Positions 3,121 through 32,506 of a DNA stretch of 32,506 nt are shown piece by piece (the first letter of the stretch is position 1; the number at the start of each line of letters is the position of its first letter). A program made the position numbers and the translations under genes. The stretch covers positions 1 to 32,506 of the forward strand of contig JAUVCL010000002.1 of assembly GCA_030595845.1 (NCBI GenBank), in the 5' to 3' direction. The notes below the pieces were generated by a model, which saw only the letters and a list, made by a program, of their open reading frames with translations, did no database searches and was not told the origin of the DNA. The stretch is from Campylobacterota bacterium. GTDB taxonomy: Bacteria; Campylobacterota; Campylobacteria; Campylobacterales; Sulfurovaceae.

Positions 3121-3377
3121 TTGTAAGAGTACTCTTATATGCAATGGCTTCTATTATCGTAGGGATGGGTGCGTATATCATTTATCAAAATATGGTAAAT
3201 AATTCGCTAGAAGAAACCACTAAGGAGCAAGCACAGCAGATTGTAGATAAAGATTCACAAATTAAAGTCATAGGTGTAAACGTCAATAGCACTTTAGAAA
3301 GGATGGACAATGATACAAAGAATGAAATTATCGTTAATGATAACACTCTTCGTACTGGTAAACGTAGGTTGCGATAA
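3117..3377 (+). CDS. i-spanin-like (Rz-type) inner membrane protein
   Basis: N-terminal TM then charged coiled-coil-like region; overlaps holin stop (ATGA) and an out-of-frame lipoprotein gene. Confidence 0.6.
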   Translation: MIVRVLLYAMASIIVGMGAYIIYQNMVNNSLEETTKEQAQQIVDKDSQIKVIGVNVNSTLERMDNDTKNEIIVNDNTLRTGKRRLR

Positions 3378-3585
3378 AAAACCTATACCAAAGTGTTACT
3401 ACCCCGACATGAAAAAGGCTAGACACATGTCATGTGATTACACCATTAAACCTGATGGATCAATGGATATAGCTAACTCACAAAAAGCTGATAAATGCGT
3501 TTATAGTTTATGGAACAATCAAAACTACTATGAACGCAGATTCAATGATTATAATAAATACAAAAAGGAAAAAGAAAATGAATAA
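3322..3585 (+). CDS. o-spanin-like (Rz1-type) lipoprotein
   Basis: MKLSLMITLFVLVNVGC lipobox-type signal; start lies out of frame within the i-spanin gene (ORF track start 3310; ATG at 3322 preferred). Confidence 0.65.
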   Translation: MKLSLMITLFVLVNVGCDKKPIPKCYYPDMKKARHMSCDYTIKPDGSMDIANSQKADKCVYSLWNNQNYYERRFNDYNKYKKEKENE

Positions 3586-3958
3586 TACATGGATAGGAAT
3601 AATGTTAGCGGTTGTGGTTTTAGGTGGCTTTTTATATGCCAAAGAGATGAAAAAAACTCCTGATGGTTTTACCATTGAATCAGATGTAGTGCATACATAC
3701 TATGTTAATAAAATCATTTGGGGTGACAACTACACAGATCACACCAATACTACACCAGTTCACAACACAGAGGTCATAGCCTTTGGTGATGGATGGGAAT
3801 ATTCAACCACCACAGATGATAATGGAGATTTTAAAGTGGAAGTGAAGCCAGGTGTACCATTTTACATAAAAGCCTCTGATGGAAATGATTGGTCTGTATC
3901 TGTGGAGCAGCCACCTGTTGCTATTGGCACTACTTTTGATGATAGAACGGATAAGTGA
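3578..3958 (+). CDS. Membrane-anchored protein with carboxypeptidase-regulatory/Ig-like domain
   Basis: N-terminal TM 'WIGIMLAVVVLGGFLYA', then 'TEVIAFGDGWEYSTTTDDNGDFKVEVKPGVPFYIKAS' beta-sandwich pattern; ATG at 3578 with AAAAAGGAA upstream. Confidence 0.5.
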   Translation: MNNTWIGIMLAVVVLGGFLYAKEMKKTPDGFTIESDVVHTYYVNKIIWGDNYTDHTNTTPVHNTEVIAFGDGWEYSTTTDDNGDFKVEVKPGVPFYIKASDGNDWSVSVEQPPVAIGTTFDDRTDK

Positions 3959-11652: not shown

Positions 11653-11901
11653 GAAACGCCACCCCGTGGCTTTCTGTACGCTCTATAAGTGCCAAGGCAC
11701 GATGCCCAAGGGCAGGCATGGCGTATTTTACGTCATGCCTGCCCTAAGCGCCAAGACAAGGAAGAGCAAAACAAATATTTAGTAGAGATTCACGGTGTGG
11801 GGTGGTGTTTGGGTTTTCGTGTAGAAAGCACCCCACCCACTGATTAAAATTTAATCTACTGTTTATGTGAATAACTGTCCTGTTTTGTGGGTTATTCACA
11901 T
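11653..11901. other. Cluster of inverted repeats with two inverted TTATTCACA (DnaA-box-like) sites; candidate replication or structural locus
   Basis: 17-bp stem 11709-11725/11729-11745 (one G:T, loop TTT); GTGCCAAGGCAC 11689-11700; GTGGGGTG/CACCCCAC 11797-11804/11829-11836; ATGTGAATAAC/GTTATTCACAT 11865-11875/11891-11901. Confidence 0.5.
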
Positions 11902-12732: not shown

Positions 12733-12771
12733 TTTAAATAATTGCTGTCCGCTCTTTGCCTTGGGACTTGT
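12733..12771. repeat. ~38-bp direct repeat, copy A
   Basis: TTTAAATAATTGCTGTCCGCTCTT-TGCCTTGGGACTTGT, near-identical to copy B at ~14278-14317. Confidence 0.7.
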
Positions 12772-14240: not shown

Positions 14241-14277
14241 TTATTATCCTCCAACTCCCAAACAAACTTCAAAACCT

Positions 14278-14317
14278 CTTAAATAATTGCTGTCCGCTCT
14301 TCTGCCTTGGACCTTGT
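14278..14317. repeat. ~38-bp direct repeat, copy B
   Basis: TTAAATAATTGCTGTCCGCTCTTCTGCCTTGGACCTTGT. Confidence 0.7.
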
Positions 14318-14318
14318 C

Positions 14319-15760: not shown

Positions 15761-15899
15761 AATAGTAAGTACACTAGGAAAGCGTTGTTTGGTATGTTCC
15801 GATGAAGTCATTTTTGAGGTTTTGCAAAAGTCCATTTTTCAAGGTACACGTACAGAGTGCGAAGCCTTTATAAAAAAGAGTGAGGCTAAACATGCATAA
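15753..15899 (+). CDS. 48-aa small protein, not in supplied ORF track
   Basis: MLRIVSTLGKRCLVCSDEVIFEVLQKSIFQGTRTECEAFIKKSEAKHA*; coupled to both neighbours. Confidence 0.4.
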   Translation: MLRIVSTLGKRCLVCSDEVIFEVLQKSIFQGTRTECEAFIKKSEAKHA

Positions 15900-18741
15900 C
15901 GATAACTGGTTTGAAAAAGCACGGTCCTATGATATGCCTTTGTTTTTGGAACAGGCATACATGATAGAAGTGAATAGGGCTAAAAAATGTATTTGTCCTT
16001 TTCATGATGATACAAAAGCTAGTTTAAGCCTTACAGAAAAAAGTGGGGAGTGGATATTTAACTGTTTTGTATGTGATTCCAAAGGTGACATAACCAATTT
16101 TGTAATGATGAAAGATAATTTGAATGCACTTGATGCAGTGAAAAAAATACTCATTCATCATGGAGAAAGTATAGAAGTAGGTGAGAAAAAAGAACTTACT
16201 GCAGCAGAGCTTGAAGAGATAGAAAAAAGAGCTGAAGAAGCAGCTAACAGAAAAGCTACAAAGATACAAGATGAAAAGAACCTTCAAAAGTCTGCACGTG
16301 TGCAGATGGCCAAAGCTTCAGAGGTCTATGCCCAAAATTTTTTTGATGCTTATGAGCAAGGCAATGAGGAGATCATTAAGATAGTAGAAGCTAAGTTCCC
16401 TCATATCTATAGTAACACTGAAATACGTGATCTTTATATGGGTTGGGATTATGAGAATGAATCACTGTGTTTGATAAACAGAAATTTGAACGGTGAGACT
16501 TTCAACATCAAAAGTGAAAAGCGTAAAGGCTTTTTTAAAGACTGGAAGTTTGGTGAGACATTTAAAGAATATGCGTTCCCTGGTAAATGGATAAGCTGGA
16601 AACATGCCACTGCTCATGCCTTTGGTTCTGACTTTATGGATGAGAGTGATAGCCGTGTTGTGATCTGTGAGGGTGAAAAAGATGCTATCAATCTTTTACT
16701 ACTTGGGATCAATGCTTTAACGCTTGGTGGGGTTACTACTTCATGGGAAGATCATAAGGAACTTTTGAAATATAAAAATGTTTTCATTTGGTTTGATCAT
16801 GATGAGGCTGGGTATATCAATGCTATTAAAAAACATAAAGAGTTATGTGAAGTAGCCAAAAGTTGTCAAGTGATATGGTTCTATAAGCTTGGTACTTTTG
16901 AAAACAAATATGACATCAGTGATTACATTACCGATAAGCAGATGATCAATAAAGAGCAAGTCTTTAAATCTATCATCTTTTCATCTTTCATACCTACTAA
17001 CTATGTGATCTATGAGCTTGAAGAGTATCTTGACTTAGATCAAAAATCTAATGTAGCTAAAGAACTGGCTGGGCTAAAAGAAGAAGAAGTACTTAGAGAC
17101 TTTAGTAAATGTAAATCACTCATCATAAATTCGGTAAAAGATGTACGTGGTGAAAAAGATGAAGAAGTTAAACTCATGCAGCACTTGGGGAAGCAACTTG
17201 AAAGCAGCCGGGTTAAAGAGGATCTTCAAAAACTCATCAACTCTCTTTTTACTGAAGACTCAGGTTTTTTAGGTTCTGAGCTTGCAAGCCTTAAAAAAGT
17301 CATACAGTTTAAAAAGTCTATGCTTACTGACTATAGACAGACTCACATTTATGACATGGTGAAAGAGCTTGAGCGTGCGACTCAAAGTGCTGGCTATTCA
17401 TTTGCTGTATATCGTGAAGTATTGTATTTTTGGACTGGTAATTACTTTTATGCGTTAGAAGACTGGGAGATAAAATCATTCATCATGAAAGAGTACTTGA
17501 GTGCTGCAAAGATAGACTTTAAAAAACAGACTGTGAAAACGCGTGACGAGATACTTCTTAACCTCTTTGGATGGTCACAAAACCTTGAAGCCTGGGTAGA
17601 GAATAACAAACGTGTTATCAATATGACTAACGGTGCTTTGATCATCCGTGCCAGTGGAAAGTACACTTTTAGGAATCATCATAAAAAACAAGACTGTGCC
17701 ATGAATATGCTTGGTTTTGCTTATGATGAAAAAGCTACTGCGCCAAAATGGAAAGTGTTTTTAAATCGTGTATTGCCTGACCAAAATGACCAGGACACAC
17801 TTATGGAGTTTATAGGTTACTGCCTACTTCCTTCTCATAATTATGAAAGTTTTTTATATCTGTACGGATCCAGTGGGGCAAATGGTAAATCAGTGGTACT
17901 TGCCGTGATACGTGACTTCTTCGCAAAAGAAAACATAAGTTACTTGCAACTTCACAATTTTGAGGGGCATGAGCTAGAGACACTTAGAAACAAGATTATC
18001 AATATAGGGTCTGAGATAGAGAGTGGTGGTGATATGCGTAAACAGATGTCCGTACTTAAAAACATGACTTCGGCTGAAGACTCTTTAACAGTAAACCCTA
18101 AAAATGAAAAACAGTTTACCATCCACCCAGAAGAAAAACCTAAGATGGTCTTTGCTGCTAACAAACTTGTGAAGAGTGGTGTAGATGATGGTGGTGTGCA
18201 AAGACGTATGATCTTACTTAACTTCAATCAAGAGATAAAAGATGGTGAAAAGATACGTGATCTACCTCTGAGACTTAGAGATGAAAAGCCTGGCATACTC
18301 AACATGGCCATAGAAGGCATGGTAAGACTCATCAAAAATAATGGGTTCTCTTTAAGTGAAGGCCGTGACAAGTTTATGGAGCAGTACAAGTCTGACATCA
18401 ACCCGGTTAGGGCATACATGAAAGAGTGTTTGGTTAAAGATAGTGGTCTTATGATAGCTAAGAAATTTGTTTATGCACATTACCAGGCGTGGTGTGATGA
18501 GAAAGGTCATAAAGCCTATGCATCGCCTACATTTTGGAGTAAATTTAAAGAACAGGAAAACTATGAAGAGATACGTCAACGGAAATATGAACATGATCTA
18601 TTGCCTGATCGCCATCCTTTTATAAAAGATTTTAGATTTATTCCTGATGCAGTTAGTGAGTTTGAAGTAGGAAACATGAAACTAAAAGTTGAGGATCACA
18701 ATATCTCACAAACACTGTTTTTACCTGTGGTAGTGGAGTAA
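15892..18741 (+). CDS. P4-alpha-like primase-helicase (CHC2 zinc finger + TOPRIM + D5/SF3 helicase)
   Basis: 'CICPFHDDTKASLSL...FNCFVC', 'RVVICEGEKDAINLLLLG...VFIWFDHDEAG', 'YLYGSSGANGKSVVLAVI' Walker A, 'NIGSEIESG', 'PKMVFAANKL'. Confidence 0.85.
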   Translation: MHNDNWFEKARSYDMPLFLEQAYMIEVNRAKKCICPFHDDTKASLSLTEKSGEWIFNCFVCDSKGDITNFVMMKDNLNALDAVKKILIHHGESIEVGEKKELTAAELEEIEKRAEEAANRKATKIQDEKNLQKSARVQMAKASEVYAQNFFDAYEQGNEEIIKIVEAKFPHIYSNTEIRDLYMGWDYENESLCLINRNLNGETFNIKSEKRKGFFKDWKFGETFKEYAFPGKWISWKHATAHAFGSDFMDESDSRVVICEGEKDAINLLLLGINALTLGGVTTSWEDHKELLKYKNVFIWFDHDEAGYINAIKKHKELCEVAKSCQVIWFYKLGTFENKYDISDYITDKQMINKEQVFKSIIFSSFIPTNYVIYELEEYLDLDQKSNVAKELAGLKEEEVLRDFSKCKSLIINSVKDVRGEKDEEVKLMQHLGKQLESSRVKEDLQKLINSLFTEDSGFLGSELASLKKVIQFKKSMLTDYRQTHIYDMVKELERATQSAGYSFAVYREVLYFWTGNYFYALEDWEIKSFIMKEYLSAAKIDFKKQTVKTRDEILLNLFGWSQNLEAWVENNKRVINMTNGALIIRASGKYTFRNHHKKQDCAMNMLGFAYDEKATAPKWKVFLNRVLPDQNDQDTLMEFIGYCLLPSHNYESFLYLYGSSGANGKSVVLAVIRDFFAKENISYLQLHNFEGHELETLRNKIINIGSEIESGGDMRKQMSVLKNMTSAEDSLTVNPKNEKQFTIHPEEKPKMVFAANKLVKSGVDDGGVQRRMILLNFNQEIKDGEKIRDLPLRLRDEKPGILNMAIEGMVRLIKNNGFSLSEGRDKFMEQYKSDINPVRAYMKECLVKDSGLMIAKKFVYAHYQAWCDEKGHKAYASPTFWSKFKEQENYEEIRQRKYEHDLLPDRHPFIKDFRFIPDAVSEFEVGNMKLKVEDHNISQTLFLPVVVE

Positions 18742-18760: not shown

Positions 18761-19280
18761 TGTCCTCTCTGTCCTTAGCAAATTTGGCTGTTGTCCTTAG
18801 CAAAATATGCACCAAAGGACAACACAAACAACGGTGTGTGCGTACTTTCAAGAGTAAAAACGGCTTTTGTCCTCTTGTCCTTAGCAAATTGGCTTATTCA
18901 TACTGTAGATATTTTTTACTTACGAAATATTTTTACAGCTCTAATTGGCTCTTTTGGAGAGGACAAGAGGACAAAGAGAGAAAAAGGGTCTTTATGCCAC
19001 CTTAATACGGGCTTTACTCTGTCCTCTGCTTGAATTATTTGCTAAGGACAGGGTAAGGACAGTGAGGACAAAAAGGAAATTAGAAAAAATTACAAAAAAA
19101 CTGTAAAAATATTTTATTACAAAAAATATTTTTTACAGCTCTAATCTACTCTTTTGCTTGGAACACTTGGAACAGAGAGAGAAAAAGGGTCTATAGACCC
19201 CCATTCTAGGGGCTTTGCCCTGTGCCATGCAAAGTAAATTTGCATGGCACAGTCTTGGAACACCCTGGCACAGTAGAAAA
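18761..19280. repeat. Iteron array / candidate replication origin
   Basis: TGTCCTTAGCAAA at 18770-18782, 18792-18804, 18876-18888 (+) and 19038-19050 (-); many extra GGACA/TGTCC sites; second module with GGAACA/GGCACA sites; AT-rich inverted repeats. Confidence 0.65.
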
Positions 19281-19533: not shown

Positions 19534-20121
19534 ATGAGTAAAACATTTCAAATGATATTAAAAAAAGAGTTAGACGGTAATAACGGAAAAATACCTTTTT
19601 CATTTGTGCAGCACATGGCAGATATTGGTGAGACAAAATTTGTGCAGCTTACGCCAAATATGAGAGTGTGTGTGATCACTTTAACTACTGGTCATGAAGT
19701 CATTGGTGTAGCTCAAGTACTTGATGCTAAAAATGATGTTGAAGAGATAGGTAATAGTGTGGCTTATGAAAATGCAGTAAATGAACTTTGGAAACTTGAA
19801 GGATATTTGTTAAAGCAAAAGATTTATAACGGAAATATAAAAACCTCAAATATGAATTTTGGTCAAGCTATATCAGATATGAAGAAAGGTAAAAAAGTAG
19901 CTCGAAGTGGGTGGAATGGTAAGGGCATGTTTATTTATTATGTACCAGCAAATAAATATCCTATGAGTGGTAATACTCTTGAAACAATGAAAGGTATTTA
20001 TCCTGATGATTTAGTCCCTTATCAAGAATACACCGCTATGAAAACAGTTGATAATACCGTAGTGCCTTGGTTATGTTCACAATCTGATATGTATGCTGAA
20101 GATTGGGGGATTGTAGAATGA
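19534..20121 (+). CDS. Gp49-like (Phage_gp49_66) domain fused to Tad2/DUF2829 (Thoeris anti-defense) domain
   Basis: N-term 'RVCVITLTTGHEVIGVAQVLDAKNDVEEIGNSVAYENAVNELWKLEGYLLKQ'; C-term 'MNFGQAISDMKKGKKVARSGWNGKGMFIYYVPA...AMKTVDNTVVPWLCSQSDMYAEDWGIV'. Confidence 0.8.
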   Translation: MSKTFQMILKKELDGNNGKIPFSFVQHMADIGETKFVQLTPNMRVCVITLTTGHEVIGVAQVLDAKNDVEEIGNSVAYENAVNELWKLEGYLLKQKIYNGNIKTSNMNFGQAISDMKKGKKVARSGWNGKGMFIYYVPANKYPMSGNTLETMKGIYPDDLVPYQEYTAMKTVDNTVVPWLCSQSDMYAEDWGIVE

Positions 20122-22870: not shown

Positions 22871-23422
22871 ATGAATGATGTAATGACCCATGATCAACAA
22901 AAAGCTGAAGAGATATACCTTGACAGTATAAGTTATGAGAATGACTATAAGGCTGTGAGTTTTTCACGGCTTAAAGAGATGCTTGAGAATGTGGGTGTAA
23001 AAACTTCTACTTCTGCGCTTGGGCGTTGGTGTGATAAGTTTAACTGGAAAGAGAAGGTTAAACAGATCGTTACTGCTGCGACCTTGGGAGATGGTGAAGC
23101 CTCAGAAATCATCTCTAAAAGCTCACTTGAAAAAAATACTAAAAAAATACTGACAGACTTTGAAGCCAATGAGTCTTTGAAAGATAGTGCTTATGCGATA
23201 CTTGGGGATCAGATAAAGCACTATGCTTCTGAGATGAAGAAAAAAACTCATCTTTCCTTAGAGAGTACAAAAGTAGTTATTAAAATACTTGAAGTTACTA
23301 CTATACGTGAAGATAAACTTCTTGACCGTGTGGCTCTGCTTCAAGCTAGTAAACTTGCTAACTCTACGGATGTGTTGGCTGCACTTGACAAAGAGTTTAT
23401 AGAAGTTGAAATAGATGAGTAG
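22871..23422 (+). CDS. Terminase small subunit
   Basis: HTH-like N-terminus 'FSRLKEMLENVGVKTSTSALGRWCDKFNWKEKVKQ', position directly before TerL. Confidence 0.65.
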   Translation: MNDVMTHDQQKAEEIYLDSISYENDYKAVSFSRLKEMLENVGVKTSTSALGRWCDKFNWKEKVKQIVTAATLGDGEASEIISKSSLEKNTKKILTDFEANESLKDSAYAILGDQIKHYASEMKKKTHLSLESTKVVIKILEVTTIREDKLLDRVALLQASKLANSTDVLAALDKEFIEVEIDE

Positions 23423-31907: not shown

Positions 31908-32506
31908 GTGGAAAATCAAGATGATATAAGAATAGGCCTAGATCCTGTAGATGAAATCTATATTGGAGCAGAAAGAGTTTATGAAAGAGATTCTTCTGCT
32001 GTAGCACCAAACGCACCAACAGGCTTTACTGCATCTGATAATTTAAATGGTGAGATACAGTTCTCATTCGCAGGGTCTACTGTAGGGAATCCTGTACCTT
32101 CTTATTCCATCTATGAAACAGTTGGTGATGTTTTAGTTAGATCTGGGGCATATAACAATGTTGTTGTATCTATAGCAGATGGAACTAAATCATATTACGT
32201 TAGAGCTACCAACAGTGAAGGTTCTGCAAATAGTGCGAGTGATGATGGTACATCATTGCCTGTAGTAACACTTACAGCACCAAACGCACCTACTCTTTTC
32301 TCTGCATCAAATGATGAAGCGGAACAAATCATATTTACATGGGTAGACTCAACCGTTGGTAATCCAACTCCTACTTATGACATATATCAAGATACAAATG
32401 TATTGCTAGTAAGTGGTGTAACAAGTCCGCATACAGAGACAATCGCAGGAGGAACAACTAAGTTTTATTTTGTGAGAGCCACAAACAGCGAAGGAACAGC
32501 AGATAG
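31908..32506 (+). CDS. Tail fibre/appendage protein with FN3-like repeats (5' part; continues at position 1 with 141-bp overlap)
   Basis: GTG start 31908, MENQDDIRIGLDPVDEIYIGAERVYERDSSAVAPNAPTGFTASDN...; continuous with frame of 38..1192. Confidence 0.75.
   Translation, partial: MENQDDIRIGLDPVDEIYIGAERVYERDSSAVAPNAPTGFTASDNLNGEIQFSFAGSTVGNPVPSYSIYETVGDVLVRSGAYNNVVVSIADGTKSYYVRATNSEGSANSASDDGTSLPVVTLTAPNAPTLFSASNDEAEQIIFTWVDSTVGNPTPTYDIYQDTNVLLVSGVTSPHTETIAGGTTKFYFVRATNSEGTAD
32366..32506 (+). repeat. 141-bp terminal direct repeat identical to 1-141 (circular contig overlap)
   Basis: Base-by-base identical start and end, AACTCCTACTTATG...GCAGATAG. Confidence 0.95.

Follow-up and report, generated by a model that had tools for sequence, protein, structure and literature searches.

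The window, that is the whole stretch of 32,506 nucleotides analysed here, encodes a large terminase, an SU10-type portal and capsid and an endolysin, and its positions 1-141 and 32366-32506 are identical. Given the 141 bases shared by its two ends, the contig probably represents an entire phage genome of 32,365 bp, either circular or circularly permuted. The putative initiator is a primase-helicase of 953 aa (15880..18741, plus strand), in which Pfam and PHROGs recognised, in order, a CHC2 zinc ribbon, a Toprim primase, D5_N, an SF3/D5 helicase (DUF5906) and a Pox_D5-type C-terminus (aa ~840-892). The SF3 part and the C-terminus matched PDB 7ola 'DNA primase' with an E of 5e-13; this is the best solved relative, which we take to be the SaPI5 primase-helicase. 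An AlphaFold model of aa 480-953 calculated without an alignment reached a pLDDT of 36, was too poor for use and was discarded. A repeat array (array A, 18761-19070) begins 20 bp past the stop codon of this gene. The first-pass annotation had located the array correctly, but overlooked a second, homologous half-array (module B) that extends up to 19272. The gene at 22871-23416 is homologous to the gene that follows the array in relatives and had no clear PHROGs match; it is likely the small terminase, since it stands just before the large terminase. Three other features of the genome were recorded. Soon past the putative origin, a protein encoded at 19534-20121 combines a Phage_gp49_66 domain with a Tad2-like one (Thoeris anti-defence 2). 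A direct repeat of ~38 bp (TTAAATAATTGCTGTCCGCTCTT...TGCCTTGGRAC), found at ~12733-12770 and ~14274-14318, brackets a stretch with a DUF4760 gene and is possibly the boundary of a mobile or moron segment. An inverted pair, TGTGAATAAC...GTTATTCACA, lies at 11866-11900 in a gene-free stretch ~7 kb from the array, and has the DnaA-box-like TTATTCACA on both strands.

Array A had been noticed as four copies of a 13-mer together with about eight further GGACA/TGTCC heptamer-like sites. The 13-mer, TGTCCTTAGCAAA, was found exactly where reported, at 18770, 18792 and 18876 on the plus strand and at 19038 on the minus strand, with no further copy elsewhere in the window, nor in the host assembly of 1.97 Mb, and the additional sites number exactly eight. 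The repeat cluster is real, but its unit is neither the 13-mer nor a heptamer. All 12 GGACA sites within 18761-19070 read AGGACA, so that the true unit is the hexamer AGGACA/TGTCCT, present in 12/12 copies over 310 bp, where ~0.33 GGACA sites would be expected per 350 bp (Poisson p ~3e-15). No other 5-mer clusters as strongly in the window, the runner-up non-overlapping cluster being AT-rich sequence (~2e-8). The 13-mer was rejected as the functional unit in favour of the hexamer, as its TTAGCAAA tail stands on only four sites; the tail looks like scaffold, because GCAAA-type tails also occur in relatives behind sites with other words.

The sites are arranged as a dyad, which the first-pass annotation had missed. 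With T for TGTCCT and A for AGGACA, their order is TTTA TT / AT-rich / AA TAAA, that is 6+6, and the order string is its own mirror image. The left half (18761..18881) has TGTCCT at 18761, 18770 and 18792, AGGACA at 18816, and TGTCCT at 18868 and 18876; the right half (18960..19070), the mirror image of the left, has AGGACA at 18960 and 18968, TGTCCT at 19020, and AGGACA at 19045, 19056 and 19065. The spacings are near-mirror as well (9, 22, 24, 52, 8 / 84 / 8, 52, 25, 11, 9; permutation p 1e-4), and the strand-folding energy of the array (z -8.8) reflects the nested dyad. The dyad centre (18882..18959), a putative unwinding element, comprises 77 bp with 70% AT, rising to 78% in 40-bp windows. 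No Rfam family was matched in the array region. A GC-skew check had been suggested for an origin at this place, and no sign change was seen at the array; the skew is weak evidence here because nearly all genes point one way. BLASTN of the array returned nothing useful among phages and mainly low-complexity AT matches among 398 genomes, as expected if words and scaffold diverge, and the search of genome contigs gave one weak match.

About a dozen genomes from the same taxonomic order encode full-length relatives of the primase-helicase, at 36-40% identity. In 10/10 of the loci L044-L053, each of ~6-11 kb, no short-word cluster is stronger than the one found immediately past the primase stop, and an array directly 3' of the primase-helicase is kept in L065 too. 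At least five other words are used among these ten relatives: GTGACA in L044, TGAGCCA in L045, L046 and L049, TAAGACA in L047, L048, L050 and L051, GTGTAACC in L052 and GTGGTAAA in L053; the word of L065 is CTTGACA, and in L064 a truncated reading frame is followed by a TGAGCCA array. The site order is identical to that of array A in L044 (spacings 8, 12, 25, 42, 8 / 86 / 8, 42, 25, 12, 8) and in L047/L050 (10, 11, 14, 42, 8 / 113 / 8, 41, 14, 11, 9; the site count leaves out one overlapping single-mismatch match). For AGGACA, GTGACA and TAAGACA, the permutation p of spacing symmetry was 1e-4, 6e-4 and 1e-4, with 6/6 inverted pairs each, and we read the spacing differences between arrays as near 10-11 bp, about one helical turn. 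The central gap is 78-85% AT in four relatives. The arrays of L052 and L053 are incompletely symmetric, and that of L053 is truncated by the contig end. In L054, a full-length relative, no array was seen in the 9.5 kb examined, and in L080 a CCGTTACA array is situated ~2.4 kb upstream of the primase (reverse strand, about 220-530), not downstream, which is a possible origin relocation. Among eight more distant helicases (24-32% identity), seven had no clear adjoining array and only L060 (ATGGACG) has one. By eye, a GGTCCACC/GGTGGACC cluster was also seen upstream of the helicase gene in L008 (about 3200-3620), the contig of which may be a contaminant of its genome bin. The spacers under different words are 59-68% identical (L045, L048, L049, L051 and L065), close to the 69% of the same-word pair L048/L051. 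Since the spacers stay this similar, the array scaffold looks homologous, with the words changed in concert. The TAAGACA array of L048 retains one GAGCCA site at the homologous position, possibly a transitional remnant.

Natural exchanges link the word to a part of the helicase. Between L045 and L047, identity is ~95% over a stretch that starts 500 bp upstream and runs to codon ~390, 50-80% past that codon in the helicase half, lower across the array, and again 95-100% once the AAAAAGGAAAA leader of the next gene is reached. The identity pattern and breakpoints are the same in L049 versus L050, and the same-word pairs L045/L049 and L047/L050 are alike across helicase and array. This natural 2x2 exchange indicates that the word is inherited along with the helicase half, and independently of both the primase half and the next gene. 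In L048, the AAA domain is nearer to that of L045 (84 versus 72%), the C-terminal domain is nearer to that of L047 (67 versus 60%) and the word is that of L047, which is suggestive of a partly chimeric protein whose C-terminus accompanies the word. A sharper case is that of 13 Streptococcus phages, where the word tracks the final ~45-70 residues of the D5 helicase rather than its body. These phages form two clades with both words in each. Within a clade the helicase bodies are 92-99% identical, and phages with different words still share 92-100% of the ~260 residues ahead of the variable end, whereas the final ~70 residues change together with the word; GKTVR-type ends go with ACGTAAC/ACATAAC and KQxK-type ends with GGTAAC. 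The 13 phages are related, some near-identically, so their count is not one of independent events, and the helicase body is not constant by design. In the Streptococcus phages BV-0002 and P9 (L092, L093), the primase gene is annotated in two pieces and the array is intact. From these natural swaps, we infer that the C-terminal region of the window's primase-helicase (codons ~824-953; 18350..18738, plus strand) is a putative DNA-binding region that would read the recognition word.

Behind array A, a ACAAAAAGGAAATTAG leader (19068..19083, plus strand) carries the motif that serves in relatives as the ribosome-binding leader of the post-array gene. In relatives the gene follows at once, whereas in the window module B comes first and a gene only after it, which fits an insertion of module B behind the leader. 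Module B consists of an AT-rich block (19091..19158) homologous to the centre of array A and of an orphan right half-array (19159..19272) with the word TGGAACA/TGGCACA: TGGAACA at 19159, 19168 and 19256, TGTGCCA at 19221, and TGGCACA at 19245 and 19266. It also contains a perfect 14-bp hairpin (19220-19252). The order AA TAAA is that of the right half of array A, and the spacing is ~9, 52, 25, 11, 10 as compared to 8, 52, 25, 11, 9. One explanation is a tandem duplication of half an origin followed by drift, with no foreign helicase involved; the nearly gapless alignment of 19091-19272 to the right half of array A, with 121/201 positions identical as against at most 57% in shuffles, speaks for it. 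All six sites of module B, however, read GGNACA where array A has GGACA, with the spacing retained, and drift alone would not alter every word alike, so we regard duplication with drift as rather unlikely. The most likely explanation, at about even odds, is instead that module B stems from an earlier or foreign origin, whose right half remained in the genome when a helicase-plus-origin cassette was exchanged.

The first-pass annotation had proposed that the array is an origin recognised by the protein encoded immediately upstream. This proposal gains strong support from the conserved place of the array, its co-exchange with the helicase, the Streptococcus phages and the SaPI/PICI layout discussed below, and on this comparative evidence the array at 18761-19070 is almost certainly the replication origin of the phage. 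Alternatively, a regulator that controls transcription of the downstream operon might use the sites as operators, as the array often ends in a site that overlaps the next gene's leader, and the window encodes a CI-like helix-turn-helix protein. No promoter-like site was found in the array region, and a single weak minus-strand site resembled a terminator; the word tracks the helicase C-terminus, and a 6+6 arrangement of 12 sites, symmetric about an AT-rich centre, would be an unusual operator layout, all of which make operators very unlikely. A pac/cos packaging site bound by the small terminase would agree with the position of the putative terS gene, directly behind the array in most relatives. 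In the natural exchanges, however, the array changes together with the helicase half while the start of putative terS stays 95-100% identical, and the packaging reading was rejected on this ground; moreover, the window's putative terS homologue is 3.6 kb away, and in L080 putative terS directly follows the primase with the array elsewhere, leaving this reading with hardly any probability. Least probable of all is that a plasmid-like phage uses the array for partition (parS/centromere) or incompatibility. Arrays of that kind also have short words, and the genome can circularise through its 141-bp end overlap, but the array is co-exchanged with the helicase, and no ParA/ParB-like gene was recognised among the proteins scanned, a subset of the ORFs.

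For the origin reading, the following mechanism is proposed. The C-terminal domain of the D5-type primase-helicase would bind the twelve AGGACA/TGTCCT words, and each mirror-image set of six sites would recruit one helicase hexamer; six sites per half fit one hexamer per half, and the 6+6 layout predicts one site per subunit of a double hexamer. The two hexamers would come together facing each other on the AT-rich centre and melt the DNA there, the fused Toprim primase would lay primers, and replication would start bidirectionally at the array. We infer the binding, the hexamer per half, the central melting and the bidirectional start, and consider the explanation as a whole, from origin to Toprim priming, highly probable. 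A more tentative idea, which we place somewhat short of an even chance, is that phage origins of this kind keep the dyad scaffold while words and helicase C-terminus change in concert, whether by cassette exchange or stepwise, giving private 'incompatibility' types. The window would then have caught such a switch, with a one-word origin next to half of an older one that used another word. The natural exchanges are experiments of nature that map where initiator specificity lies, and they bear on how an initiator and a dozen sites shift specificity together in iteron replicons. L045/L047 and Javan140/GBSInt4 differ in word and helicase C-terminus and in little else nearby, so the change of specificity is directly testable.

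As compared to iteron plasmid (Rep/DnaA) origins, which have tandem direct iterons of 17-22 bp and DnaA boxes, array A has 6-bp words in both orientations, and no DnaA-box-like site is present between 18480 and 19472. The Streptococcus phages (Javan626, Javan140 and others) also have an array immediately 3' of a D5 primase-helicase and a conserved scaffold; their words, ACGTAAC or GGTAAC, change with the helicase C-terminus, and both words and scaffold are unrelated to those of the window. In P4, replication depends on two cis sites, ori and crr, that lie apart from each other, whereas the GGACA scan found a single AGGACA cluster in the window, with no counterpart of the distant second cis site. 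The alpha protein of P4 joins a Toprim primase to an SF3 helicase and binds origin repeats by a winged helix (PMC4234260), and the window protein, according to its Pfam order, likewise combines a Toprim primase, an SF3 helicase and a putative C-terminal DNA-binding domain. For ORF904 of pRN1, the required cis region lies directly downstream of the primase-helicase gene and has a dyad structure (PMC4234260), as in the window; unlike array A, it is a stem-loop without iterons, and the primase is archaeo-eukaryotic. Cch2 of SCCmec is also a D5-type helicase with iterons directly downstream of its gene, and its isolated C-terminal domain binds these short iterons (AAGTG), but it has only three of them and no fused Toprim primase (PMC7581432).

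In layout, array A matches the Rep-ori system of SaPI/PICI. The origin is described there directly 3' of the initiator helicase gene (PMC6092414; SaPI via PMC7581432), with two iteron sets flanking an AT-rich region and the iterons recognised by the helicase C-terminal domain (PMC6092414, PMC7581432). Array A agrees in lying immediately 3' of the primase-helicase gene and in having six sites on either side of an AT-rich centre. Recognition of the iterons by the C-terminus of the window's protein would be a further parallel, to which the co-exchange in relatives and Streptococcus phages points. Some aspects of this specificity may have been described before in the primary SaPI origin work. The explicit 6+6 dyad, the change of word within a conserved scaffold and the orphan half-array are additional to the SaPI/PICI layout. 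Unlike the PICI satellites, which depend on a helper phage for capsid and packaging, the phage of the window has its own TerL, SU10-type portal, major capsid protein and endolysin. The putative origin described here extends the SaPI/PICI type of self-loading-helicase origin to complete phages.
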